Virus record (IMG/VR): IMGVR_UViG_3300018432_000036
Location: 1 to 29,219 of that record
Origin: a virus
Length of the DNA: 29,219 nucleotides
Direction: 5' to 3' (one strand)
The notes beneath the pieces were generated by a model that was not told where the DNA came from, made no database searches, and worked only from the letters and a program-made list of their open reading frames with translations. Positions 4,797-27,837 of this stretch are shown here, piece after piece (position 1 is the stretch's first letter; each line of letters begins with the position of its first letter). The translations under genes and the position numbers were made by a program.

Positions 4797-6299
4797 ATGA
4801 CGATCGCCCAGCTGCGCGCCGCAGTGCGCGCGGCCTTCGAGCGCCTCGAGCGCGCCAACAGCGCCATCGACGCCCTCACCGCCGACAGCACCGACGAGCA
4901 GCGCACCGCAGCGCAGACCGAGTTCGACACCGCCGAGGCCGAGCACCGCGATGCCGGTGTCGCGCTGCGCCGCGCCGAGGACCTCGAGACCGCGCGCCGC
5001 GCACTCCCGCCGGCTGCGGCCGACACCGCGGCCGACGACGACCGCCGCGCAGGTGACGGCAGCGGGGCACGCATCACGCGCGAGCCGCCGACGTACGAGC
5101 GCGGAAGCGGCAACAGCTACTTCCTCGACCTCGCGCGGTCGCTCACGGGCCGCGGTCTCAGCGGCGCGTCCGAGCGCCTGGCGAACCACGCCCAGGACGT
5201 CCGGGGCGTCGTCGACGCTCGCGATCGCCGAGCCCGCGACGGCGTCGACCGCGAGATGGAGCAGCTGCTGCGCGAGCTCCCGCTGCCCGTCGCCCGTGCG
5301 CTCGAGCAGTCCGGTGTCATCGGCGTGCAGCGCGAGTCACGAGCGCTGACGCGCGTCGACGGCGCCGGCGGCGGCTTCGTCCCGCCGTTGCACCTCCTCG
5401 ACGAGTACGCGGAGGTTCCGCGCGCGTCACGTCCGATGGTCGAGTCGTGCCGGCACATCCCGCTGCCGTCGGGCACGGACTCGATCGTCATCCCGAAGAT
5501 CTCGACCGGCACCGTCACCGCGCCGCAGACGGCCGATGGCGCGGCGGTCGCATCGACGGACCTCGCCGACGCGACGGTTACCGCGCCGGTGCGGACGATC
5601 GCGGGGCAGCAGGACGTCGCCATGCAGCTGCTCGACCAGTCCCCCATCGCGTTCGACGAGATCGTCTTCGCGGACCTGATCGCCGACTACTACTACCGCT
5701 GCGAGGACCAGGGCTGGAACGGCAGCGGGGCGTCTGGCCAGATCAAGGGCATGCTCGCCGTCTCGGGCTTCAACGCGATCACGTACACCGACGCGTCGCC
5801 GACCGTGCCCGAGCTGTACCCCAAGATCGCCGGAGCCCTCAGCGATGCCCGCACCGCTCGCAAGCGGCCGATCACGCATGGCTGGCTCGCGCCGCGCCGC
5901 TACTACTGGCTGACGTCGGCGCTCGACGGGCAGAGCCGACCTCTCGTCGTGCCGCAGATCATGGGGCCGATGAACGCCGCCGGCGTCGTCGGCACGGAGA
6001 CGGGCGGCGGGTCGGGCGAGGATCACCCGGTCAACCTGCAGGGCGTCTGGCATCACATGACCGACGCGATGCCCGTCAACCTCGGCGCGGGCACCAACGA
6101 GGATCGCATCGTCGAGACTCGCATGGCCGACCACCTGTGGTTCGAGGGCGAGCTGCACGCTCGCGCGATGACCGAGGTGCTGTCCGGCACGCTGCAGGTC
6201 CGCCTGCAGGTCTACGCCTACGTCGCCGCGACGTTCGAGCGCTTCCCCAACGGGATCAGCGTCATCGCCGGCACCGGGCTGATCACGCCGACGTTCTGA
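4797..6299 (+). CDS. Major capsid protein (HK97 fold) with N-terminal scaffold domain
   Basis: This is the shell subunit. Residues ~1-75 are a highly charged Ala/Glu coiled coil (MTIAQLRAAVRAAFERLERANSAIDAL onward), typical of a delta/scaffold domain removed by the protease encoded just upstream. The mature HK97-like part begins near residue 185 (GAGGGFVPPLHLLDEY), with the familiar SGTDSIVIPKISTGT, the P-domain helix DEIVFADLIADYYYRCEDQ, the NGSGASGQIKGML glycine loop, and a C-terminal HARAMTEVLSGTLQVRLQVYAYVA stretch. AGGAG at 4786-4790 lies six bases from the ATG. At 500 residues it is within range for capsid proteins that carry a scaffold. A 12-bp hairpin follows the stop. Confidence 0.93.
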   Translation: MTIAQLRAAVRAAFERLERANSAIDALTADSTDEQRTAAQTEFDTAEAEHRDAGVALRRAEDLETARRALPPAAADTAADDDRRAGDGSGARITREPPTYERGSGNSYFLDLARSLTGRGLSGASERLANHAQDVRGVVDARDRRARDGVDREMEQLLRELPLPVARALEQSGVIGVQRESRALTRVDGAGGGFVPPLHLLDEYAEVPRASRPMVESCRHIPLPSGTDSIVIPKISTGTVTAPQTADGAAVASTDLADATVTAPVRTIAGQQDVAMQLLDQSPIAFDEIVFADLIADYYYRCEDQGWNGSGASGQIKGMLAVSGFNAITYTDASPTVPELYPKIAGALSDARTARKRPITHGWLAPRRYYWLTSALDGQSRPLVVPQIMGPMNAAGVVGTETGGGSGEDHPVNLQGVWHHMTDAMPVNLGAGTNEDRIVETRMADHLWFEGELHARAMTEVLSGTLQVRLQVYAYVAATFERFPNGISVIAGTGLITPTF

Positions 6300-6305
6300 T
6301 CGCCC

Positions 6306-6334
6306 GCGCGGCGCGGGGACTTCCCGCGCCGCGC
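6306..6334. terminator. Perfect 12-bp hairpin after the capsid gene
   Basis: GCGCGGCGCGGG (6306-6317) is exactly complementary to 6323-6334, with a 5-base loop GACTT, starting seven bases after the capsid stop. There is no T-tract. It probably ends, attenuates or stabilises the capsid message, so that capsid mRNA exceeds downstream gene mRNA. It may be an actinobacterial I-shaped terminator; this is inference. Confidence 0.6.
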
Positions 6335-6364
6335 TGAACTCCCCAAGAACAGGAGACCAACACC

Positions 6365-6601
6365 ATGCCAGAACCGATCATCCAGCCGGCGTCCGAGTTC
6401 CCGACGACCGGCCACCGCACCAACCACATGGCCGCGCTCGTCCGCGAACGCGAGGGCTACGAGGCCAAGGCCAAGGCCGCCGAGACCACCGGCGACACCG
6501 CCGGCGCCGAGGCCGCCAAGAACCGCGCCAGCCAGGTCGCCACGGAGATCAAACGCGTGGCCGACAGCGCGCGGGCCCGGCCGAACGTCGCGACCCGGTA
6601 G
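6365..6601 (+). CDS. Small helical protein downstream of the capsid gene
   Basis: A 78-residue protein with a short N-terminal lead (MPEPIIQPASEFPTTGHRTNHM) and a long Ala/Lys/Glu-rich helix (AALVREREGYEAKAKAAETT onward), so mostly helical. AGGAG at 6351-6355 supports the ATG. It lies between capsid and a presumed capsid-associated protein, each side bounded by a strong hairpin, so it is probably expressed at a tuned level with the head genes. It could be a head accessory protein. The family is not recognised. Confidence 0.75.
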   Translation: MPEPIIQPASEFPTTGHRTNHMAALVREREGYEAKAKAAETTGDTAGAEAAKNRASQVATEIKRVADSARARPNVATR

Positions 6602-6609
6602 CTCGCGGC

Positions 6610-6636
6610 GCGGGGGCGGCGGATAGCCGCTCCCGC
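6610..6636. terminator. 11-bp hairpin after the small helical protein gene
   Basis: Bases 6610-6620 pair with 6626-6636 over 11 positions, including one G-U pair, with loop GGATA, starting nine bases after the stop at 6601. The palindrome GCACGCGTGC at 6635-6644 overlaps its end. There is no T-tract. Terminator, attenuator or mRNA stabiliser are all possible. It is the second hairpin in 300 bases of this operon. Confidence 0.5.
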
Positions 6637-6674
6637 ACGCGTGCGGCACCTGAAGCCCACAGAGGAGGCAGCCC

Positions 6675-8288
6675 ATGTCGCTGGTGACATACGTCGGTCC
6701 GTACGCAAGCGTGACCGTCAACTACAACGGGATCGGCTACCTGGCCCCGCGCAATCTCTCGATCAGCGTCCCCGACGCGCTCGAGGCCCTACTCCTCGGC
6801 CAACCCGTCAACTGGGAAGACGGCGGCGACGGTGCCCCCGGCTTCATCCCGCCGGACGATCCCGACTGGCGGACGATCTCGATCGACCTCAACGGTGCGG
6901 GCGACGTCATCGTGCGCGACGACGAGTCGCCCACCGGCTTCGGCCTCAGCGACTCGGTCCTCACGGAGGGCGTACTCGAGGGCGCTCTCGAGCCCATCGA
7001 GACTCAGCTCAGTGCGCTGGAAAGCGGTAGTGCCTGGGATGACGGTGCTGACGGTCGCGTACTGACCTTTGGCCCCGGTGGAGTGATTTGGAGTGCGCCA
7101 CCCAGTGGCGCGCCGGTTGCCATTGCACAGGGGCTCCGCGCCGTGCGCGACGCGGAATATGCGGCGGTCATGGCGTCCCCGCCGACGATCGCACTGAGTG
7201 CCGCGAACGCGGCCACGTCGATCGCTTCGGCGGTCGAATATGCCCACACCAACGGCGTCTTTCGTTGGTCTGGCGGCAAGGTGGTCACGCTGGCGATCTA
7301 CCCGAACTACAAGGGCATAGGCCCTGTCGTCAGCGACGCCAACTGGCTTGACGACGCTGGCTTCCAGGTGGAGTTTCTGACGGACGCCACGCAGTTCGAG
7401 CAGGTCGCGTTTGGCAAGCTCGGTGTCTGCCGTGTATGGGTCGATGATCGGCCCGCGACGGCGGGTCATACGACGCTCGGCCCTGCGGATGGCAACTTCT
7501 ACCGGCTGCTTGTCTCCTCGCTTGCGGCGGGCACCAAGGCGATCAGGATCGAGTACAGCACGGCCAACCAGCTCGGTCCGGTCCGCGTTCCTACAGGTTC
7601 AGTGATAACCGCTGTCGCGGGATCTGTTGGGCCGAAGTTGATCGCGATCACCGACTCTTACGGGGATGGGCCGAACCCAGATAGCTTCAATGACCTGTTC
7701 AAGCGAGCGGGTCGTCTGCTCGGTATCAGGGATACCCGCGTGTCTCCTTCGGGCGGGACCGGCAATATGAATCCTGGCCCGTTCAGCCGCGTCAAGTTCC
7801 GGTCACGCGTCCAAGAAGTCATGCTGAACTACACGCCTGATATCGCGCTGGTGGCCGGGGGAATCAACGACTCCGATAGGCATACCTCGGCGATCTATCC
7901 GGCCGGGGCGGCAACAGCGCTGACCGTACTGGGGACGGAGGCGGCCGCGCTGTACGACGCAATCCGTTCTGGCTCCCCGACATCGGCGCTGGTTGTCGTG
8001 GGTCCGTGGTGGCCCAACGAGAACCCCACGAACAACGCGGCGGGATCGGACGTGATCGGCGTTCGCGACACGATCGAGGCCAAGGCCCTCGCTGCCGGGG
8101 CGATTTTCATTGATCCGATCGGGGAGCAGTGGATCACGGGGACTGGGCGTGTTGGGACGCCCGCTGGGAACGGCAACGCCGACTACTACATATCTTCGGA
8201 CGGCACCCACCCCTCGCCCGCTGGGCATGCGTACCTTGGCCGCAAGCTTGAGCAGGCTCTAGCCCCGTACGTGCCGCTGAGTGGATGA
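6675..8288 (+). CDS. Virion-associated SGNH/GDSL-type hydrolase
   Basis: The 537-residue protein has two parts. Residues ~1-115 resemble neighbouring structural proteins (YVGPYASVTVNYNGIG, a SISVPDALEALLLGQPV strand, GFIPPDDPDWRTISIDL). Residues ~320-530 form an SGNH hydrolase: block I ITDSYGDG with nucleophile S328 (Thr replaces the usual Gly before Asp), block III GGINDS with N398, and block V SDGTHPSPAGH with D509 and H512. This family includes carbohydrate esterases and acylhydrolases. In a phage particle it may remove acetyl or acyl groups from surface glycans. AGGAGG at 6663-6668 supports the start. Codon use becomes less G/C-biased from about 7015, suggesting the enzyme part was grafted on. 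The structural location (head fibre or decoration) is inferred from gene order. Confidence 0.8.
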   Translation: MSLVTYVGPYASVTVNYNGIGYLAPRNLSISVPDALEALLLGQPVNWEDGGDGAPGFIPPDDPDWRTISIDLNGAGDVIVRDDESPTGFGLSDSVLTEGVLEGALEPIETQLSALESGSAWDDGADGRVLTFGPGGVIWSAPPSGAPVAIAQGLRAVRDAEYAAVMASPPTIALSAANAATSIASAVEYAHTNGVFRWSGGKVVTLAIYPNYKGIGPVVSDANWLDDAGFQVEFLTDATQFEQVAFGKLGVCRVWVDDRPATAGHTTLGPADGNFYRLLVSSLAAGTKAIRIEYSTANQLGPVRVPTGSVITAVAGSVGPKLIAITDSYGDGPNPDSFNDLFKRAGRLLGIRDTRVSPSGGTGNMNPGPFSRVKFRSRVQEVMLNYTPDIALVAGGINDSDRHTSAIYPAGAATALTVLGTEAAALYDAIRSGSPTSALVVVGPWWPNENPTNNAAGSDVIGVRDTIEAKALAAGAIFIDPIGEQWITGTGRVGTPAGNGNADYYISSDGTHPSPAGHAYLGRKLEQALAPYVPLSG

Positions 8289-8365
8289 TCGCTTTGCGTC
8301 GGGAGCACTAGACCATTCGTTGAGCAGCGCCGCGGCGGCTGGCAGGATCCTGAGCCCATAGAAAC

Positions 8366-8394
8366 GCCCCCGCGACGCGCCAACGTCCGGGGGC
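8366..8394. terminator. Hairpin in the gap before the integrase gene
   Basis: GCCCCCG (8366-8372) is complementary to CGGGGGC (8388-8394), with a 15-base loop, in the 128-base gap 8289-8416. The gap otherwise shows no gene; a GCCGCGGCGGC-type inverted stretch lies at 8329-8340. The hairpin may terminate the upstream operon segment. An attachment site in this gap is possible but I cannot define one. Confidence 0.35.
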
Positions 8395-8416
8395 CGGCAC
8401 AGGAGATGACGCTCCC

Positions 8417-9085
8417 ATGCAGACCGACCGTACCGCGTTCAGCGGCACCCCGTTCAGCGCGCTTCACCGGGGCCGACGGCCCGGCAACGCCGGGCAGACC
8501 TATCCGGCGGACCCACCCAGCATCCTCGAAATCGTCGCTGTCCTGAAAGCGTGCGGCGCCACGCTCGCCGGCCAGCGACTGCGAGCGCTGATCATCGTGC
8601 TCTGGCGTTCCGGGCTACGAATCAGCGAAGCGCTCGCGCTGCAGGAGTCCGATCTCGACGAGCGCGCGAACAGCATCCTCGTCCGATCCGGCAAGGGCGG
8701 CAAGCGTCGCCTCATCGGGATGGACGACTGGGGCTGGCAGGAGCTGCGGCCCTGGATGCAGACACGTGAGCAGCTGCCCGTCGGGACCGTCTTCCCGGTC
8801 GTGCTCGGCGCGTCCGCCGGCAAGAAGTGGAGCCCATCCGGCGCCCGATCGGCGCTGCGGTTCGCCGCGGCACGCTCGTCGGTCCGCCGCAGGATCAACC
8901 CGCACGGCTTCCGCCACGCCCACGCCTGCGAGCTCGCTCGCGAAGGCGTCCCACTGCACCTCATCCAACGCCAGCTCGGCCACGCGAACCCCGGCATCAC
9001 GGCGATCTACCTGCAGGGCATCGCAGGTGTCGAAGTCATCGACGCGATGAGCGCCAGGCGCGCCCCGATGGTGCCCGCGATGTAG
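8417..9085 (+). CDS. Tyrosine recombinase (catalytic-domain integrase)
   Basis: This is a site-specific DNA recombinase that forms a 3'-phosphotyrosine link. All catalytic residues are visible in 222 aa: R68 (SGLRISEAL), K93 (SGKGGKRR), H163 and R166 (HGFRHAHA), H189 (LGHANPG) and nucleophile Y198 (ITAIYLQG). The protein is short: only ~45 residues precede the catalytic domain, so the usual SAM-like core-binding domain and arm-binding domain are mostly absent. AGGAG at 8401-8405 lies 11 bases from the ATG, a long spacing. It is embedded in the head/tail operon, between the SGNH protein and the head-tail adaptor, in the same orientation. It is XerC/D-like and could act in phage integration, resolve genome dimers, or be a selfish insertion. 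Confidence 0.9.
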   Translation: MQTDRTAFSGTPFSALHRGRRPGNAGQTYPADPPSILEIVAVLKACGATLAGQRLRALIIVLWRSGLRISEALALQESDLDERANSILVRSGKGGKRRLIGMDDWGWQELRPWMQTREQLPVGTVFPVVLGASAGKKWSPSGARSALRFAAARSSVRRRINPHGFRHAHACELAREGVPLHLIQRQLGHANPGITAIYLQGIAGVEVIDAMSARRAPMVPAM

Positions 9086-9108
9086 ACCACCACGCCGAAG
9101 GAGAGATC

Positions 9109-9702
9109 ATGAGCGTAACCCCGCTGTGCACGCTCGCCGAAGTCCGCGGCCGGCGACAGACGCCGGTCGCGAACACCGGACAGGACGCCGAGGTACAGCG
9201 GCTGATCGCGAGCCTCTCCTCGGCGATCGCCGAGGAGTACGAACGCGAGTTCACGCCAACCGACGCAGCCACGCGCACCTTCGAGTACGACGTCGACGAC
9301 GGCCCCCTGCTCAGCCTCACGCCATACGAGCTACGCACCGTCACCGAAGTGCTCACAGACGCCGACAGCGCCGACGTCGTGACGCTCGCCGCGGCCGACT
9401 ACCGGCTGCACCCCTACCCGTCGAAGCACGGCACCTTCCTCGCGCTGCGCTTCCGACCCGCGCTCGTCGCCACAAACGCACTGTGGGGCACGACGCTCGT
9501 CGAGATCACCGGCGACTGGGGATTCGACGAGATCCCCGACAACGTTCGCGAGGCCGCGATCGTCAGCGTCGTGCACAACATGCGCACCAGCGTCGGCCAG
9601 TACAGCGTCGCCGACGGCGCGGGCGGCGAGACCCGCTACGAACGCGTCGAGATCCCCCAAGCCGCGCGAGACCTGCTGCAGCCCTTCCGACGGATGGCCT
9701 GA
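9109..9702 (+). CDS. Head-tail connector (adaptor, gp6-like)
   Basis: The 197-residue protein starts at ATG 9109 with AAGGAG at 9098-9103. The frame is open upstream, but that part is a shadow of the integrase. It shows the pattern of head-tail adaptors: an N-terminal ITLAEVR-like helix start (CTLAEVRGRRQTP), the amphipathic helix DAEVQRLIASLSSAIAEEYEREF, then beta strands (TRTFEYDVDDGPLLSLTPY, TVTEVLTD), GDWGFDEIPDNVREAAIVSV and a C-terminal helix. Such proteins form the ring under the portal that joins the tail. The assignment rests on pattern and position, first gene after the head block. The stop overlaps the next ATG. Confidence 0.75.
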   Translation: MSVTPLCTLAEVRGRRQTPVANTGQDAEVQRLIASLSSAIAEEYEREFTPTDAATRTFEYDVDDGPLLSLTPYELRTVTEVLTDADSADVVTLAAADYRLHPYPSKHGTFLALRFRPALVATNALWGTTLVEITGDWGFDEIPDNVREAAIVSVVHNMRTSVGQYSVADGAGGETRYERVEIPQAARDLLQPFRRMA

Positions 9703-12408: not shown

Positions 12409-12575
12409 CGCAACTCGAGGTAGACCCGCGGCCGCGATGGACCGCTGAGCTCGGCGCCACCTTCGGCTGGGCGGCACCCGAAGCGTTGGACCACCTGCGC
12501 CCCCACGAGCTGCAGGCGATGGAGCAGTTCTTGAGGCAACGCCGACACAAGGAGGCGAGCAATGTCGACACGTAA
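12339..12575 (+). CDS. Tail assembly chaperone, -1 frameshift extension
   Basis: The -1 frame has no start of its own but reads coherently through the short form's stop, giving ARERLLDLAQLEVDPRPRW, TAELGATFGWAAPEALDHL and a final helix HELQAMEQFLRQRRHKEAS before TAA at 12573-12575. This looks like the T domain of a gpG/gpGT-type pair, and its end overlaps the tape measure start by 14 bases. The shift point must lie before 12406. The -1 frame is open from at least 12291. I found no canonical X XXY YYZ heptamer. The run CTCCTCCCTCCT near 12334-12345 is the best weak candidate. Confidence 0.68.
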   Translation, partial: PSYDAATQAGRRQAPARERLLDLAQLEVDPRPRWTAELGATFGWAAPEALDHLRPHELQAMEQFLRQRRHKEASNVDT

Positions 12576-15500
12576 AGCAGCGCTCGCCGTCCTCATCACC
12601 GGGGATCAGAAGCAGCTCGAACGCACCCTCAACAAGGGCGGCGACAACCTCACGAAGTTCGGCAAGAAAGCCGAGCACACCAACACCCGCGTCGGATCCT
12701 CGTTCTCCGGCCTGGCGAAGCGCGCCGCCGCCGGCGGCGCCGCGATGGTCGGCGCCTACGCGTCGATTGCCGGCGGCAAGAAGGCGATCGATACGACCAC
12801 GACGCTCGCGAAGACGACGCTGTCACTGCACAAGAACCTAGGCCTGTCGATCGAGTCGTCATCGCGGTGGGCCGCCGCCGCGAAGTCGCGCGACATCGAC
12901 TCAAAGGCGCTCAACCAGTCGTTCGTCGTGTTGTCGAAGAACATCGGCAAGGCCGGCAGCGAACAGGACAAGTACCGAGCCAAGCTCGACGAGCTCGGCG
13001 GCTCCGAGAAGGACCAGGAGCAGCGCCAGAAGCTGCTCGCCAAGGGTGCCGGCGACACGGTCGGTGCGTTCAAGAAGCTCGGGATCTCGCAGGACGAGCT
13101 GAAGAAGAGCGACTTCGACGACGTCCTGAAGAAGGCCGCCGACGGCCTGGCGGCCCTGCCCGCCGGCGCCGACCGCGCCGCGTTGTCAGCGAAGCTCTTC
13201 GGGCGCGGCTGGCAAAGCATCGTGCCGGTCCTGCGTGGCGGCTCGAAGGCGATGGACGAACAGCTCGCGCTCGCCGACAAGTACGGCGTCACGCTCAAGG
13301 GCAAGACCGTCAAGAGCCTCGAGGAGATGATTGCGGCCCAGCGCGAGTCGAAGTTCGCGACCATGGGTCTGCAGGTATCTCTCGGCCAAGAGCTCATCCC
13401 AGCGCTGACGAAGGGCTCACAGGCCTTCAGCAAGTTCGTTGCGCAGATGCGCACCGGCAAAGGCGCCGGCGGCCAGTTCGCCGACGTCGTCGAGACCATT
13501 GTCGACGAAGCCCGACCGATCGTAGTGTGGCTCGGCCGCGCCGGCGCAGCCGTCGGCCGCTTCGTCGAGAAACACCCCGAGGTCGGCAAGCTCGCCGCAG
13601 CGGTCATTGCCGTCGGCGTCGCGGTCAAGACGCTCAAGTTCGTGAGCGCCGCGACCGGCTTCACCGGCCTGCTCAAGGGCGGACGCTCGGCGATGAGGGG
13701 ACTAGTCCGCATCTTCGCTACTCAGGGTGCAGTCGCTGGCACCGCCGCCGGTACGGCGGCGGCGGGCGGCGAAGGGATGGCGTCGTCGGCGGTGTTCGAC
13801 AAGCACCGAAACACCGGCAAAAGGCTCGGCAAGGTGCTGGGCAAGGGCATCGTTGTGGGCGTCGCTCTTGGCATCGCGACGGCCGCGGATACGATCACCA
13901 AGAGCCTGTACGACAAGATCGGCGCGGGTGGCACGCCGACGGGCCTTGGGCAAGCCATCTGGCGCAAGCTCAAGGGCGATGGGCTTGGGCGACAGATCGC
14001 CCAGAACGCCCCCACGGGCCTCGGCAATGGCGCGCTGGCTGGTGCTGGCGCGGGCGGCGGCGGGCTCATGGGCGCGAATCCTGCGCTGGGTGGTTTCGCT
14101 GCGCTCGGTGCGACGTTCGGGTTGGGCGTGTCGTCGGGCGGCGAGGCCAGCCGGAAGAACAAGAAGACCTCGAGCGGTAACACCTCGTATCACTCGACGG
14201 GCGAGGCGATCGACGTGGCAGGCCCGCCTGCCGGGATGCTGCGCTACTTCAAGGCCATGAAGTCTCGCTACGGCGGCCGGCTCGCCGAGCTGATCTACAC
14301 ACCCGGCGGCGCCGGCGTGAAGAACGGTCGGCCCCACCGCTACACCGGGCAGGTCGCACGAGACCACCTCGACCACGTTCACGTCGCGCTCGACCTCGGT
14401 CGGCGCGGGCCCGGGATCGGCGACGGCATCGGTCAGGCGACAGCGGCCGCGCGCAGGGCCGGCTTGAGCGGCACGAAGCTGGTCGAGGCCGTGGCGATCG
14501 CGGGGCCCGAGAGCGGCTACAACGCTGAGGCCGTGAACATCGGGCCGCGTGATCACTCGATCGGGTTCTGGCAGATCAACCAGTTGGCGCACAAGGGCCG
14601 GTTCGGTACCGATGCGCAGCTGAAGAACCCCGACGCGAACGCTCGGGCGATGAAGGCGCTGTCGTCGGGCGGGAAGAACTGGCAGCCCTGGACGGCGTAC
14701 ACCGCGGGCAGCTACCGCTCGTTCCTCAGTCGTGCTCGAGCAGCCGTCATCGGTTCCCGCGGCGCCGGCGCCAGCTCGAGCAGGGGTGGCGGGGGTGGCG
14801 GTGCGTCCGCTGCGCCTGATCGAGCCGAGGCCCAGGAGCGCGGTGGCTCACGGATCATCAACGCGCTGACGCGCCGCCACAGCCCGGGCATCAACCGGGC
14901 GGTCGGGGCGGCCAAGAGCGCCGCCGCGCAGATCGAGGATGGCTCGACTGCGTACGGGCAGCTCGAACGGCGCTTCGGCCAGAGCGAGGAGGATCTCGGG
15001 ACCGCCGAGGGCAGAGCAGCGCGCGGCTCAGAGATCAAGGCGTTGCGGGTCGAGAAGGGCAAGCAGCTCGCTCGGGCGAAGCGACGGGCGCAGCATCTGA
15101 GGACGGCGATCAAGCGGCTGGACGCCCTGATCAAGGCTGCCCGCAAGAAGCGCGACAAGGCGAAGGGCGGCACTCGTGCGCGGATCGTCAAGCGCATCCG
15201 TGACTTTGAGGATCAGCGCTCGGACCTCGCCGCAGAGCTGAAGTCACTCGAGCTGCAGGACATCCCCGAGCTGGGCCTCGACATCGGAGATCTCGATAAG
15301 GAGGCGCAGGACGTCGCCGGTGGCGGCGCCGCGGCGTCGTCGGCGACGGACAAGGCCGGCAGTGACCTCGAGCTGGTCGACCTGCGCGAACGCGCGGGCG
15401 TGTACTCGCCCGGGCAAGCGGAGGCGGAGCGCCAGCGCATTCGGCAGGCCGCGCTCGGCGGTGCGTATGGCGCCCTGAGCGAGCGCGAGCAGCTGCAGAT

Positions 15501-15738
15501 TCAAGGCGACATGCTCGAGGCGCAGAAGCAGGCGACGCAGGCTGTCGCCGACCTCACGTCGGAGATCACAGCGCTGAGGGCGGAACAGGCCAAGACCAAC
15601 GCCTTCAACGAATCGCTCATCGGCGTGCAGTTTGCGACGATCAGCCGCGCGTTCGCCGATCACCTCTCGGGCGAACTCGGCGGCCGAGTCCAAGCACGCG
15701 CGGCAATGCCAAACAGCGGCGCCCTGATGGGTCTATGA
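12562..15738 (+). CDS. Tape measure protein with peptidase and transglycosylase domains
   Basis: The 1058-residue protein sets tail length and is released with DNA. The first ~330 residues are helical (TTLAKTTLSLHKNLGLSIES, LPAGADRAALSAKLFGRGWQ). Hydrophobic helices follow at ~345-365 and 430-445. Residues ~535-612 are an M15-like peptidase domain: H544 and D551 in YHSTGEAIDVAG, and DHLDHVHVA with H605 and H607. Residues ~635-725 are a lysozyme-like SLT domain with probable catalytic E650 in AGPESGYN and IGFWQIN. The C-terminal ~300 residues are coiled coil (KALRVEKGKQLARAKRRAQ). AAGGAGG at 12549-12555 supports the ATG. The two domains probably cut peptide cross-links and glycan strands during DNA entry. 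The order peptidase-then-SLT is clear. Confidence 0.9.
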   Translation: MSTRKAALAVLITGDQKQLERTLNKGGDNLTKFGKKAEHTNTRVGSSFSGLAKRAAAGGAAMVGAYASIAGGKKAIDTTTTLAKTTLSLHKNLGLSIESSSRWAAAAKSRDIDSKALNQSFVVLSKNIGKAGSEQDKYRAKLDELGGSEKDQEQRQKLLAKGAGDTVGAFKKLGISQDELKKSDFDDVLKKAADGLAALPAGADRAALSAKLFGRGWQSIVPVLRGGSKAMDEQLALADKYGVTLKGKTVKSLEEMIAAQRESKFATMGLQVSLGQELIPALTKGSQAFSKFVAQMRTGKGAGGQFADVVETIVDEARPIVVWLGRAGAAVGRFVEKHPEVGKLAAAVIAVGVAVKTLKFVSAATGFTGLLKGGRSAMRGLVRIFATQGAVAGTAAGTAAAGGEGMASSAVFDKHRNTGKRLGKVLGKGIVVGVALGIATAADTITKSLYDKIGAGGTPTGLGQAIWRKLKGDGLGRQIAQNAPTGLGNGALAGAGAGGGGLMGANPALGGFAALGATFGLGVSSGGEASRKNKKTSSGNTSYHSTGEAIDVAGPPAGMLRYFKAMKSRYGGRLAELIYTPGGAGVKNGRPHRYTGQVARDHLDHVHVALDLGRRGPGIGDGIGQATAAARRAGLSGTKLVEAVAIAGPESGYNAEAVNIGPRDHSIGFWQINQLAHKGRFGTDAQLKNPDANARAMKALSSGGKNWQPWTAYTAGSYRSFLSRARAAVIGSRGAGASSSRGGGGGGASAAPDRAEAQERGGSRIINALTRRHSPGINRAVGAAKSAAAQIEDGSTAYGQLERRFGQSEEDLGTAEGRAARGSEIKALRVEKGKQLARAKRRAQHLRTAIKRLDALIKAARKKRDKAKGGTRARIVKRIRDFEDQRSDLAAELKSLELQDIPELGLDIGDLDKEAQDVAGGGAAASSATDKAGSDLELVDLRERAGVYSPGQAEAERQRIRQAALGGAYGALSEREQLQIQGDMLEAQKQATQAVADLTSEITALRAEQAKTNAFNESLIGVQFATISRAFADHLSGELGGRVQARAAMPNSGALMGL

Positions 15739-21990: not shown

Positions 21991-22064
21991 TGCTGGCCCG
22001 TCTACTTCACGCACTGAGCGACCTGATCTCGCGCGTGACCGGCTGGCGCGGTGACAACCGCTGA
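21990..22064 (+). CDS. 24-residue amphipathic micro-gene
   Basis: ATG 21990 overlaps the previous stop, and its own TGA (22062-22064) overlaps the next ATG, both as TGATG. The product is MLARLLHALSDLISRVTG followed by WRGDNR. Leu/Ile/Val fall on one helical face and Arg/Asp/Ser on the other, as in membrane-active or membrane-surface peptides. Its place in the lysis cassette makes an accessory lysis role conceivable. No homologue is recalled. Confidence 0.42.
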   Translation: MLARLLHALSDLISRVTGWRGDNR

Positions 22065-22603
22065 TGCCGCTCACAGAGCAGTACAAGACCGACCCGTGGC
22101 CGGAGAAGCCTCCACGCCCCCGTCGCTGCCGAATCCTCAGCGCAGCGGTCCGCCACGGGTCACAAGGGCCACGACCGCGCCCGCTGCGCACTCTCGCCGG
22201 GCTGCTGCTGGGCGCTGTCGCGCTGGCGTGTCTCGTCGTCCTGCTCGGGCTCGCCGTCGCCTCAGCGGACGAGCGCGACGGCGGCTGCGAGTCGCGAGCA
22301 TGCGTCGAGCGCGTGAAAGCACGCTATCTCGAGCACCGCTACCAGCTCATCTGGCGCAGCGCACCCGTTGCAGTCCGTGCCCACCTCCGCCGGATTGCGG
22401 CGTGTGAGTCCAACGGCAACGAACGAGCCGTGTCACCCGGCGGCAAGTTCCGCGGGCTGCTTCAGTTCCTGCAGTCGACCTGGGAGGCGATGGGTGGCCG
22501 CGGTGATCCCGCGGCCGCGTCGCGATGGGAGCAGTGGGCGCGCGGGGTGCGGCTCTACATCGCTGCCGGGCCCGGGCAGTGGCCCGTCTGTCAATTCAGG
22601 TGA
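22064..22603 (+). CDS. Rpf-like transglycosylase with membrane anchor
   Basis: A 179-residue protein: a basic Pro-rich cytoplasmic segment, one membrane helix (residues ~44-66, GLLLGAVALACLVVLLGLAV), and an external domain from ~100. The domain has the resuscitation-promoting-factor pattern: IAACESNGNER with catalytic E115, GGKFRGLLQFLQSTWEAMGG, then SRWEQWARGVRLYIAAGPGQ and a terminal WPVC. C114 and C176 match the Rpf disulfide. Rpf domains cleave peptidoglycan glycan strands and are characteristic of actinobacteria. ATG overlaps the previous stop. Together with the amidase it would attack both peptide and glycan bonds at lysis. Confidence 0.85.
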   Translation: MPLTEQYKTDPWPEKPPRPRRCRILSAAVRHGSQGPRPRPLRTLAGLLLGAVALACLVVLLGLAVASADERDGGCESRACVERVKARYLEHRYQLIWRSAPVAVRAHLRRIAACESNGNERAVSPGGKFRGLLQFLQSTWEAMGGRGDPAAASRWEQWARGVRLYIAAGPGQWPVCQFR

Positions 22604-23699: not shown

Positions 23700-23789
23700 G
23701 GCCCCAAGCTACGGCGGGTGTCCCGGCAGAGTCTGCCTGTTGGGGACAGAAGTTGCCGTACAGTGACACTTTCTGTACCCTGGGGACAG
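23700..23789. promoter_or_regulatory. Divergent immunity operator/promoter region
   Basis: The gap between the repressor and Cro-like genes is rich in symmetry. GGCAGA-G-TCTGCC is a perfect palindrome at 23725-23737. TGGGGACAGA occurs twice, exactly 40 bp apart (23741 and 23781). TGTCCC at 23719-23724 is an inverted copy of GGGACA in that repeat. GTACAG (23758-23763) and CTGTAC (23773-23778) form an inverted repeat. These are likely operators for the repressor and/or the Cro-like proteins. Confidence 0.68.
23753..23781 (+). promoter_or_regulatory. Candidate rightward early promoter
   Basis: TTGCCG (23753-23758) and TACCCT (23776-23781) are separated by 17 bases, fitting a sigma-70-type promoter. 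The expected transcript start is at about 23788, just before ATG 23790, so the Cro-like message may be leaderless. The GTACAG/CTGTAC inverted repeat lies within the spacer and -10, where a bound repressor would block polymerase. Confidence 0.45.
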
Positions 23790-24044
23790 ATGGTGCACCG
23801 CGACCCGAGAGCCGGCCGACTCATCCGCGAAATCCGCGTTGATCTGGGCCTGAGCCCTGAAGCGCTCAGCCACGTCATCTACAGCGCCGGTTTCGGGTCC
23901 GTGTCGGCCCGCACGATCCGACGTATCGAGAGCGACGGGCTCGTGCCTCGTGTCAGTGCCCAGTTCGCGATCGCTCAGTTTTGCGGGCGCAGCGTCACCT
24001 CGATCTGGCCGCTGCCCGCCACCAACCGAAAGACCATGGCATGA
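23790..24044 (+). CDS. Cro-like XRE regulator
   Basis: An 84-residue protein, first gene of the rightward operon and divergent from the repressor. The helix-turn-helix spans ~10-60 (RLIREIRVDLGLSPEALSHV, SARTIRRIESDGLVPR), and the ending SVTSIWPL is common in XRE proteins. The ATG at 23790 is the last base of the second TGGGGACAGA repeat, so repressor binding there would also mask the start. An upstream in-frame ATG is not needed. It overlaps the next gene by four bases (ATGA). The lytic-switch role is inferred from position. Confidence 0.78.
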   Translation: MVHRDPRAGRLIREIRVDLGLSPEALSHVIYSAGFGSVSARTIRRIESDGLVPRVSAQFAIAQFCGRSVTSIWPLPATNRKTMA

Positions 24045-24244
24045 ACCTCACCGAGGCTCGGCTCAACCGTGGCCTGAGCGTGGCTGCTGCTGCAAAGGAG
24101 ATAGGTGTGCACCGTCGCACGCTGACAGCGCTTGAGAGTGGTGGGCGGGTCCTCCCGGATAGCGCGAAAAAGGTCGCCGACTATTTCGGCTGCAAGGTCA
24201 CTGACCTGCCCGCGTTCGCCGCGACCGCCACGGATGCGGTATGA
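24041..24244 (+). CDS. Second small XRE-family DNA-binding protein
   Basis: A 67-residue protein starting at an ATG overlapping the Cro-like stop. The fold is a plain HTH_3 domain: MNLTEARLNRGLSVAAAAKE, then IGVHRRTLTALESGGRVLPD and SAKKVADYFGCKVTDLPAF. It has no extra domain. It may be a second regulator or an excisionase-like accessory factor. Tandem small XRE genes after an immunity promoter are common in actinophages. Confidence 0.78.
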   Translation: MNLTEARLNRGLSVAAAAKEIGVHRRTLTALESGGRVLPDSAKKVADYFGCKVTDLPAFAATATDAV

Positions 24245-25262: not shown

Positions 25263-25618
25263 GCACCGTCTCATCCCTCTTTCCGTGTCGTGGTTGGCCC
25301 GTCCTTTCTGGCCTGAACGACGCGAGCTCCGCCGGCGTGCCCACGGGGAAGGCGCTCGCGGCCGCGGCGTTGTGCGACACGGAGAACTTCGTCCCGCCAC
25401 CACGCATGCAGCTCCTTCCGAGCGCGGCGGCGTCGAGCACGGCTGCTCGGCCGCGGACGAAGCGACGGCCGTCCCGTCTCCTGCACGCCCCGGGCTACCA
25501 CCGATCGGCCCGGGTGACGGCGGGACGGCCGTTGATCCCCCTTCGCTGTAGCCGGGTGATCGGCAACGTTGCCGGTCGCGTGGCCAGCGCCATCCGACCG
25601 ATGAGGAGTAGCGCATGA
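25259..25618 (+). CDS. Doubtful gene upstream of the ParB-like gene
   Basis: A 119-residue frame whose ATG overlaps the previous stop and whose stop overlaps the ParB-like ATG, both as ATGA. This double coupling is its main support. The product is Ser/Arg/Pro-rich with one plausible ordered patch (LAAAALCDTENFVPPPRMQL). Codon use is not clearly biased like its neighbours, and the palindrome at 25561-25574 lies within it. The 352-base stretch may instead be largely non-coding control DNA for the ParB-like gene. Confidence 0.33.
   Translation: MSTVSSLFPCRGWPVLSGLNDASSAGVPTGKALAAAALCDTENFVPPPRMQLLPSAAASSTAARPRTKRRPSRLLHAPGYHRSARVTAGRPLIPLRCSRVIGNVAGRVASAIRPMRSSA
25561..25574. repeat. Dispersed palindrome, copy 4 (upstream of ParB-like gene)
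   Basis: The minimal perfect 14-bp palindrome CGGCAACGTTGCCG, with two more matching positions farther out (25559 with 25576, 25558 with 25577) around one mismatch. It ends 40 bases before the ParB-like ATG. This is the copy best placed for autoregulation or for parS-like nucleation by that protein. Confidence 0.87.
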
Positions 25619-27837
25619 CCCCGCCCGCGAGCCTGCCGGTGGAGGTCACCGGCACGCTGCCGCTCGAGCAGCTCGACCCCGACCACTGGCCCAACCCCCG
25701 CGGCGACGTCGACACGACAAGCCCCGCGTTCGCCGAACTCACCGCGAGCATCGCCGCGCAAGGAATGCTCGAGCCGATCGTCGTCGGCCCCGCCCTCGAG
25801 GACTGCGGCGGCCGCCACCCGATCATCGCCGGCTGGCGGCGCTACATCGCAGCGCTCGTCGCCGGCACGCCGACGGTCCCGGTGCATCACCGCCCCGACA
25901 TCGCCGATGAGGCCTCGGCGCTGCGCGCCGCGCTCGCGGAGAACCTCGCCCGCGAGGACATGACGCCGCTCGCCGAGGCCGCGGCGATCGCCAAGCTCGT
26001 CGAGCTCGGCGACACCCAGGTCGAGGCCGCGGCCGCCGTCGGCGTCAGCGAGCGGACGGCGCGCGAGCGGCTGCGGCTGCTGACGCTGCCCAAGCCCGTG
26101 CAGGACGCGATCGCGGCCGGCCGCGTCCCCTCGACCGCCGGCCGCACGCTGCAGCTGATCGCAGATGCGTCGCCGGCCGCCGCGGTCTGGATCGCCAAGG
26201 GCCTCGAGCAGGAGAGCATCCGGGCAGCCGACCTGCTCGACCCAGACCTCACGGCCGACCTGCTGCTCGAGGTCGAGAGCCAGCCCGAGATCGCGTTCCA
26301 GAAGCTCGGCGGTTTCCTGCGCGCCGGCGACGTCGAGGACAAGGATCTCGCGAAGCGCATCAAGGCTGCTGGCGGCGGGGGAGACTACTCAGGCATCCGG
26401 CTGCGAGCCGACGACGAGCTGCTCGAGGCCGCGCGCGCCTCAGGCGGGCTGCTCGAGCACGACGAAGACCTCGTCTTTCTGACAGACACCGACCTGATCG
26501 GCGAGGCGATCGAGTACTCGATCGCGCTCACCGAGAGCGAGCGCGCTGAGCAGGCCGCAGAGCGCAAAGCCCAGCAGGCCAAGTCCCGATCGGCAAACAC
26601 AGACGGGCCGGCGAAGGATCCGGCACTACTGCTCGCTGTTGAGCGTGACAAGCAGGCACGGCCATACGCAGAGGCGATGAACGCCGAGCTTGGAAGGCGA
26701 CTGCGCGGGATGTCCGCGTGCTCGCTTGAGGGGCCTGTCGCGCGCCTCGTCCTGCACCTCGTCGATGGCTACCCGCACGCTGAAACTGCCGGCGAGTACG
26801 GCTACAAGCACGTCGACCCGGAGCGCACCCTCGACAAGGACTGGGCGGCCGCCAAGGATCCGAGCACCGCGGCGGCAGAACTGGTCAGGGCCTATGTCGC
26901 TGCATTCTTCTGCGATCCGCGCGCAACGGGCGGATCGCTCGGGCTGCCCTACTACCTGCGCGAAGAAGAGGACCTGATCGATCACATACGCGCGGCCGCG
27001 AAGAAGCTCAAGCTGCTGCCGCCACGTGCGATCGCGCTCGACGAGGCACGGACGCGACTCACGACGCAGCTGCAGCACTGGGGCGGTCGTGGGGCACGTC
27101 GGCGCATCCTCGCCGAGCTTCACGACGCGCCGGAGGTGCAGGCGCTCGATCTCGCAGACCTACGCGCAAAGACCAAGGTCTATGGCTCCGGCGGCGCCGA
27201 CGCCTACCCCATCTACGGGGACAAGGCCTTCGACCAGGCGCTCGAGCAGCTGCTCGAGGCTGGTTGCATTCGACGCGCGTCCGAGGTCGACGTCATCACG
27301 ATCACCGCGGCGGGGAAGGCCGCGCTGAGCGCACCCGACGAGCCTCAACCGATCATCGACGACATCGATGCCGACATCGCTGTGCCAGGCCTGCAGCTCG
27401 TCGACGAAGAGGTCCCCGACACCGGTGATCTCACGATCATGCTCGAGCAGCCCGAGACGTCCGTCCCCTCGAGGACGCGTCGGGCCCGGGCGCTCGAGCT
27501 GATCACCCAGCACCCCGGGATCACGATCCCCGAACTCGCGCACGGCATGGCGCTCAAGCAGAACGCGCTCTACCGCATCGTGCCCGCCCTCGCCGACGAC
27601 GGCCTGGTACGCAAGGACGGCCGTGGCTGGTTCCCCGTCGAGCAGGCCGCCGGCGACGTCGTGCTCGTGCACGTCACGCCGACCGGCGGCGGCGACCCCG
27701 TCGAGGCCGAGCTGCAGCCCGACCCGGCGAAGGGCAAGAGCAACTCGCGCAAGGTCATCTACACCGCAAGCCGCACCGCCGCGTGGGTCGCGGAGAGCCG
27801 GATCGTGGACCTCCCGGCCGAGGTCGCAGCAGCATGA
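25615..27837 (+). CDS. ParB-like protein with long C-terminal extension
   Basis: ParB proteins bind parS DNA, hydrolyse CTP and slide as clamps. The 740-residue product has NPRGDVD at 27-33, an A/S-rich SIAAQGMLEPIVV strand, Arg-rich IAGWRRYIA (GWRR at 73-76), ENLAREDMTP (109-118; the family CTP-pocket segment ENxxRxDxxP), and a helix-turn-helix at 133-156 (DTQVEAAAAVGVSERTARER). Residues ~240-600 are an unidentified helical region with basic and acidic stretches. Residues ~623-673 form a second winged helix (LELITQHPGITIPELAHGMA, DDGLVRKDGRGWFPV). Typical ParB is ~300 residues. ATG 25615 is preceded by GATGAGGAG. No ParA partner is in view. Functions could be phage plasmid partition or transcription control. 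Confidence 0.85.
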   Translation: MTPPASLPVEVTGTLPLEQLDPDHWPNPRGDVDTTSPAFAELTASIAAQGMLEPIVVGPALEDCGGRHPIIAGWRRYIAALVAGTPTVPVHHRPDIADEASALRAALAENLAREDMTPLAEAAAIAKLVELGDTQVEAAAAVGVSERTARERLRLLTLPKPVQDAIAAGRVPSTAGRTLQLIADASPAAAVWIAKGLEQESIRAADLLDPDLTADLLLEVESQPEIAFQKLGGFLRAGDVEDKDLAKRIKAAGGGGDYSGIRLRADDELLEAARASGGLLEHDEDLVFLTDTDLIGEAIEYSIALTESERAEQAAERKAQQAKSRSANTDGPAKDPALLLAVERDKQARPYAEAMNAELGRRLRGMSACSLEGPVARLVLHLVDGYPHAETAGEYGYKHVDPERTLDKDWAAAKDPSTAAAELVRAYVAAFFCDPRATGGSLGLPYYLREEEDLIDHIRAAAKKLKLLPPRAIALDEARTRLTTQLQHWGGRGARRRILAELHDAPEVQALDLADLRAKTKVYGSGGADAYPIYGDKAFDQALEQLLEAGCIRRASEVDVITITAAGKAALSAPDEPQPIIDDIDADIAVPGLQLVDEEVPDTGDLTIMLEQPETSVPSRTRRARALELITQHPGITIPELAHGMALKQNALYRIVPALADDGLVRKDGRGWFPVEQAAGDVVLVHVTPTGGGDPVEAELQPDPAKGKSNSRKVIYTASRTAAWVAESRIVDLPAEVAAA

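Follow-up and report, generated by a model that had tools for sequence, protein, structure and literature searches.

The protein encoded at positions 8417-9085 (plus strand) of a 29,219-nucleotide stretch of DNA from a soil phage (IMG/VR record IMGVR_UViG_3300018432_000036; hereafter, the window) is a tyrosine recombinase (YR) of the Phage_integrase catalytic fold. We tentatively propose, from sequence comparison, that this enzyme is an accessory recombinase resembling those of Rin systems and acting on a virion-surface cassette, and that it is not the integrase of the phage. This reading is based on the adjacency of the YR gene to surface genes, conserved motifs inside and just after the neighboring gene, octamers inverted relative to each other in these motifs, and a geometry like that of Rin.

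A short tyrosine recombinase with a catalytic domain only

The open reading frame is 222 codons in length and is preceded by a Shine-Dalgarno (SD)-like AGGAG. Residues 39-200 of the protein match Pfam PF00589 (Phage_integrase, E=7.8e-27), and its PHROG match is to integrase (E=1.4e-30). The catalytic residues, assigned by comparison with the motifs of XerD, are R68, K93, H163, R166, H189, and Y198. These six are invariant across the four members of the YR group that were aligned, and together with the Pfam and PHROG matches this invariance confirms the complete R-K-H-R-H-Y set that the original prediction had described in the 222 amino acids. The AlphaFold model consists of a lone catalytic domain that begins at about residue 36, with pLDDT of ~75 overall and 85-93 for the greater part of the catalytic core; residues 1-29 are disordered. 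Neither the model nor Pfam has a core-binding or arm-binding domain N-terminal to the catalytic domain, in keeping with the earlier claim that most of the usual N-terminal DNA-binding domains are missing. The best matches of the model in the PDB were XerA (Foldseek probability 1.00), integron integrase, and XerH.

No second YR and no serine recombinase are encoded within the 29-kb record, which is a linear fragment ending in a low-complexity repeat. Hence a second, full-length integrase, named beforehand as a finding that would speak against a special role for this YR, does not occur in the contig, itself a fragment. No convincing att-like direct repeats were found around the YR gene.

Position among virion structural genes

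The YR gene lies between capsid-side genes and the head-tail adaptor gene, all on one strand, in agreement with the original prediction. Genes for terminase, portal, protease, capsid, and a GDSL protein are located upstream, and those for head-tail adaptor, tail tube, tape measure, and a Dit-like protein downstream. The immediate upstream neighbor (6675-8288, plus strand) encodes a modular virion protein of 537 amino acids whose C-terminal domain is a GDSL esterase (Pfam Lipase_GDSL_2, 4.5e-12; PHROG head decoration, 5.8e-17), and is the proposed substrate gene. It is separated from the YR gene by a gap of 128 bp (8289-8416). The downstream neighbor is the head-tail adaptor gene (9109-9702, plus strand; PHROG 442, 8.7e-18).

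The capsid protein of the window is nearest to those of Omegavirus and related mycobacteriophages (33-40% identity), and searches with the capsid and Dit proteins found no close phage relatives. Comparison of gene order with phages lacking the YR, as had been suggested, revealed the same order without it. In Gordonia phage JKSyngboy, the esterase gene directly precedes the head-tail adaptor gene, with no recombinase between them; in phage Hollow, the esterase gene lies between portal and protease. These gene orders place the esterase in the head module of named phages and make the YR the extra element here. The GDSL gene may encode a head esterase instead of a receptor-binding protein.

Relatives of the recombinase

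We sought relatives by pattern-based scans of IMG/VR and by a degenerate motif scan. One close relative was found, with 80% amino acid identity, on a 42-kb phage contig (G001). Its gene is located between the tape measure and Dit-like genes, again beside fiber-like genes, in the order fiber 1, methyltransferase (opposite strand), YR, and fiber 2. Thus, in both phages with a close YR, the gene directly adjoins modular virion-surface or fiber-like genes, which favors a surface role. G001 also encodes a 238-aa serine recombinase, with PHROG labels of integrase or DNA-invertase.

The degenerate motif scan yielded two more distant relatives, one with 48% amino acid identity in the early region of its phage (L139) and one with 37% identity beside a large serine integrase (L140). 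With that of G001, these form a group of short YRs from IMG/VR phages that are like the window YR in size, in the invariant catalytic set, and in the motif RHAHAxELAxEG. Unlike the window YR, those of L139 and L140 occur in early or integration regions, and neither is adjacent to fiber genes. Both phages carry large serine integrases, and neither therefore requires the short YR for integration. This coexistence makes it probable that the window YR, as had been suspected, is no ordinary integrase. A degenerate pattern for the motif RPGN..YP required the codon TAC, while both YRs use TAT, and its zero matches are therefore uninformative.

Conserved DNA around the recombinase gene

The window and G001 share almost no DNA apart from three matches, which correspond to the YR gene (E=3e-138), its 5' leader (E=2e-10), and a block inside the GDSL gene (E=4e-5). 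This last is the only significant match besides the YR gene and leader, scoring 44.9 bits as against 39.1 bits for the best reversed-sequence control. The leader (8336-8416, plus strand) includes 38 nt at 95% identity (8339-8376) and a G+C-rich hairpin (~8366-8394) just upstream of the SD. At the other end, the right edge of the conserved unit is formed by the SD region of the next gene, GCCGAAGGAGA (9094-9104, plus strand), which is also present in G001 after the YR stop codon. This unit of leader, YR, and SD is found at different junctions, namely between the GDSL and adaptor genes in the window and between fiber 1-methyltransferase and fiber 2 in G001. The corresponding junctions are reciprocally empty: the tape measure and Dit genes of the window are 10 bp apart (15738|15749), and the capsid-adaptor junction of G001 (10924|10994) holds neither a GDSL gene nor a YR.

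A candidate recombination site, the post-stop motif GATCGCTTTGCGTC (8287-8300, plus strand), overlaps the stop codon of the GDSL gene. An exact copy follows fiber 2 of G001 (29318), and a degenerate copy precedes the G001 YR leader (~26812). This 14-nt match was the best among 896 pairs of post-stop flanks compared between the window and G001, the next best being 11 nt. The motif has at least 119 matches in IMG/VR, which is about chance level, and among the matches listed only that of G001 adjoins a YR relative. It is also readable as a mini-ORF, M(T)IALR..., that overlaps the stop codon.

The second candidate site is the in-gene block, which begins with GTGCGCTGGAAAGCGGTAGTGCCTGGGA and is located at the boundary of the N- and C-terminal domains of the GDSL gene (7012-7043, plus strand). 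The block (including TGGAAAGCGGTAGTGCCTGGGA) has 22 nt identical to fiber 1 of G001, and its first 15 nt are identical in fiber 2; no match to it was detected in 50,697 phage records. Fibers 1 and 2 of G001 are homologous at the N-terminus (51-56%) and unrelated at the C-terminus, with the change falling near the site, and the similarity of the window GDSL gene to fiber 1 begins at the in-gene site. All three in-gene sites (window, fiber 1, and fiber 2) are in one common codon phase.

The 128-bp gap had been suggested as a place that might hold the site of the recombinase. The motif conserved with G001 at 8287-8300 and the conserved leader are in keeping with this idea; that the YR uses the motifs as sites, that recombination occurs, and what purpose it serves we infer from the comparison of two close sequences.

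Geometry of the octamers and proposed mechanism

Both motifs contain the octamer AAAGCGRT, which was picked only after the motifs had been seen. It occurs exactly twice in the window, once as AAAGCGGT within the in-gene block (7021-7028, plus strand) and once as AAAGCGAT in the post-stop motif (8288-8295, minus strand), such that the second is inverted relative to the first. Five occurrences were found in G001: in fiber 1 (plus), in fiber 2 (plus), after fiber 2 (minus), and two strays. The inverted core in the window comprises 6 nt exactly, or 8 nt with one mismatch, and is not significant alone (random, 0.24); the inverted pair of G001 fiber 2 extends over 9 nt (~0.009 for random placement). 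GC change-points fall elsewhere than at the proposed sites and for this reason were not used as support.

In the mechanism we propose, the YR would act on two short inverted sites with the core AAAGCGRT, one at the domain boundary (7021) and one after the stop codon (8288). Strand exchange would invert the C-terminal module, or swap it with the module of a co-replicating or recombining genome, and the outcome would be a diversified virion-surface or receptor-contact protein. This would amount to a pared-down version of the Rin shufflons known from actinobacterial prophages, with a single cassette and a recombinase that has only a catalytic domain.

Inversion of a segment was among the roles originally suggested, and an inversion or cassette role does fit best, with the GDSL gene (6675-8288) as the likely substrate; a truncated surface protein would, however, result from simple inversion in each of the three cases (the window and G001 fibers 1 and 2). 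Because of this truncation, cassette exchange or an on/off switch is favored over a classic shufflon, barring silent cassettes outside the fragments. No silent alternative (Rv) C-terminal cassettes bracketed by further copies of the site were found in the window or G001, records that may be fragments. We considered whether the opposite strand holds an alternative C-terminus made available by inversion, and rejected this, as the inverted ORFs stop after short tails.

A more specific version of the proposal, which we regard as rather improbable, is that this one-domain YR performs recombinase-mediated cassette exchange between unrelated phages in co-infection. The inverted, in-phase sites would let phages trade the C-terminal modules of surface proteins, and the recombinase would travel with its substrate gene. 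If the cassette reading is true, alternative C-termini might occur after GGAAAGCG. The surface proteins of phages are mosaics, usually credited to homologous or illegitimate recombination, and a dedicated recombinase moving together with a modular surface gene that has conserved short sites at its domain boundary and its end would offer a specific, testable route for the swapping of host-contact domains.

Comparison with known systems

In Rin systems, the gene of a receptor-binding protein (RBP) carries an 8-11 bp repeat internally and another copy immediately past its stop codon, and the neighboring YR is not the integrase (PMC6109161, PMC8778435). These systems occur in Bifidobacterium prophages (PMC6109161) and in Eggerthella lenta clade 1 prophages, in which the repeats are inverted (PMC8778435). 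In the window and G001, a YR that is probably not an integrase likewise adjoins a gene for a modular virion-surface protein, which may or may not bind a receptor, and the window phage is of actinobacterial type. The short asymmetric repeat found within this gene and directly behind its stop codon, in inverted orientation as in E. lenta, is a candidate counterpart of the Rin repeats; its copies in the window are imperfect, and their exact length and significance are modest. Differences exist as well. The Rin YR has core-binding and catalytic domains, whereas that of the window has a catalytic domain only; Rin has an array of alternative Rv C-termini, whereas the window has one visible cassette; and Rin acts on an RBP gene, whereas the gene here encodes a GDSL head-module protein. 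Neither an array of cassettes nor a core-binding domain was found, and we therefore do not classify the window system as a member of Rin. If the proposed role is correct, Rin-type systems would occur not only in gut bacteria but also in actinobacterial-type phages of soil, there with a smaller enzyme.

FimB/FimE-type invertases (NF007371 and NF007370; 198-200 amino acids) share with the window YR an architecture limited to the catalytic domain, and their models are covered nearly end to end. The match to NCBIfam NF007371 (11-171 of 198, E=2.7e-14) scored 53 bits, the cut-off being 222. The window YR thus falls far below the curated cut-offs, and it differs further in having no invertible promoter element and in its context of phage morphogenesis genes. 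By sequence and structure, the closest catalytic domains are those of XerC, XerD, and XerA. The equivalog models of these three gave 84-89 bits, below all of their cut-offs (220-335), and in contrast to these proteins the window YR has no N-terminal core-binding domain and no dif-like site was found.

Alternative functions

Two other functions are serious rivals to the proposed accessory role. The YR may be a phage integrase in an unusual place, with an attP in the leader (8336-8416) or at 8287-8300, that inserts the phage into the host chromosome. It is the sole YR in a record with no serine recombinase, its PHROG label is integrase, its leader is conserved with G001, and Cro/CI-type HTH proteins (23718-24244) hint at possible lysogeny; moreover, G001 may be devoid of a large integrase, its serine recombinase being a small one of 238 aa. 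We nevertheless consider this function unlikely, given the missing core- and arm-binding domains, the coexistence of more distant group members with large serine integrases, a window without a tRNA gene, and the different structural positions of the unit in the two phages. Next in probability, and also unlikely, is the view that the gene is selfish or hitch-hiking: leader, YR, and SD, together 800 bp, would pass from phage to phage without benefiting their carrier. This would agree with a unit 80% identical, and differently placed, in two contigs sharing almost no other DNA, and with the location of relatives in early regions or next to a serine integrase. The selfish insertion of the original prediction is possible to this extent, but terminal repeats and target duplications were sought and not found; ordinary modular exchange would move the unit too, and the conserved block and post-stop motif of the neighboring gene are left unexplained.

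Less likely still is the resolution of genome multimers, or of dimers of a circularized plasmid-like prophage as by Cre for P1. The Xer/Cre-like fold of the YR and a ParB-like gene (25615-27837; PHROG, 5e-28; Pfam ParB_N and HTH_ParB) would be compatible with such a function. However, such ParB-like proteins are widespread among non-plasmid phages, no ParA was found, and neither was a lox-like palindrome with a 6-8 bp spacer near the YR. The motifs of the surface gene are again unexplained, and for multimer resolution, which had also been suggested, no evidence emerged beyond the ParB-like gene.

Additional features of the phage genomes

The leader was evaluated in two further respects. Its 16-mer CATAGAAACGCCCCCG was rejected as a mobile end, its other occurrences in IMG/VR being confined to two unrelated contexts. 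The hairpin was rejected as a distinct regulatory RNA, with a z-score of -2.3 in the window and only -1.1 in G001; Arthrobacter phage Pitbull matches the leader hairpin only. There was no Rfam match in the window or in locus L002 of G001.

In this G001 locus, the opposite-strand methyltransferase (L002, 9094-9797) has its start 25 bp within the degenerate site. Inversion of the segment would leave the truncated reading frame of fiber 1 ending in a GTGA that overlaps the start of the methyltransferase, as if the two were translationally coupled. Elsewhere in G001 (locus L136, 11470-16628), genes starting with a glycosyltransferase (PHROG, 1.8e-12) fill the interval from head-tail adaptor to head closure; the comparable place in Omegavirus is occupied by glycosyltransferases and a methyltransferase. 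The phage of L140 has two recombinases in tandem (5212-7311), a 460-aa serine integrase followed after ~110 bp by the short YR of the same group.

The tape measure proteins of the window (12562-15738) and G001 (L002, 2131-6846) each have an embedded lysozyme-like SLT_3 domain, and that of G001 also has a weak M15 peptidase match, below the cut-off. The ParB-like protein of the window is 740 amino acids in length and has a C-terminal winged-helix match as well; it may belong to a plasmid-like prophage or may be a regulator. The end of the contig (28960-29219) is a GCC/GAC-rich low-complexity repeat encoding runs of Ala and Asp, at which the assembly probably broke, leaving the phage incomplete. 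Following the amidase lysin, the window encodes an Rpf-type transglycosylase domain (22064-22603; PF06737, 1e-17), which suggests an actinobacterial host.
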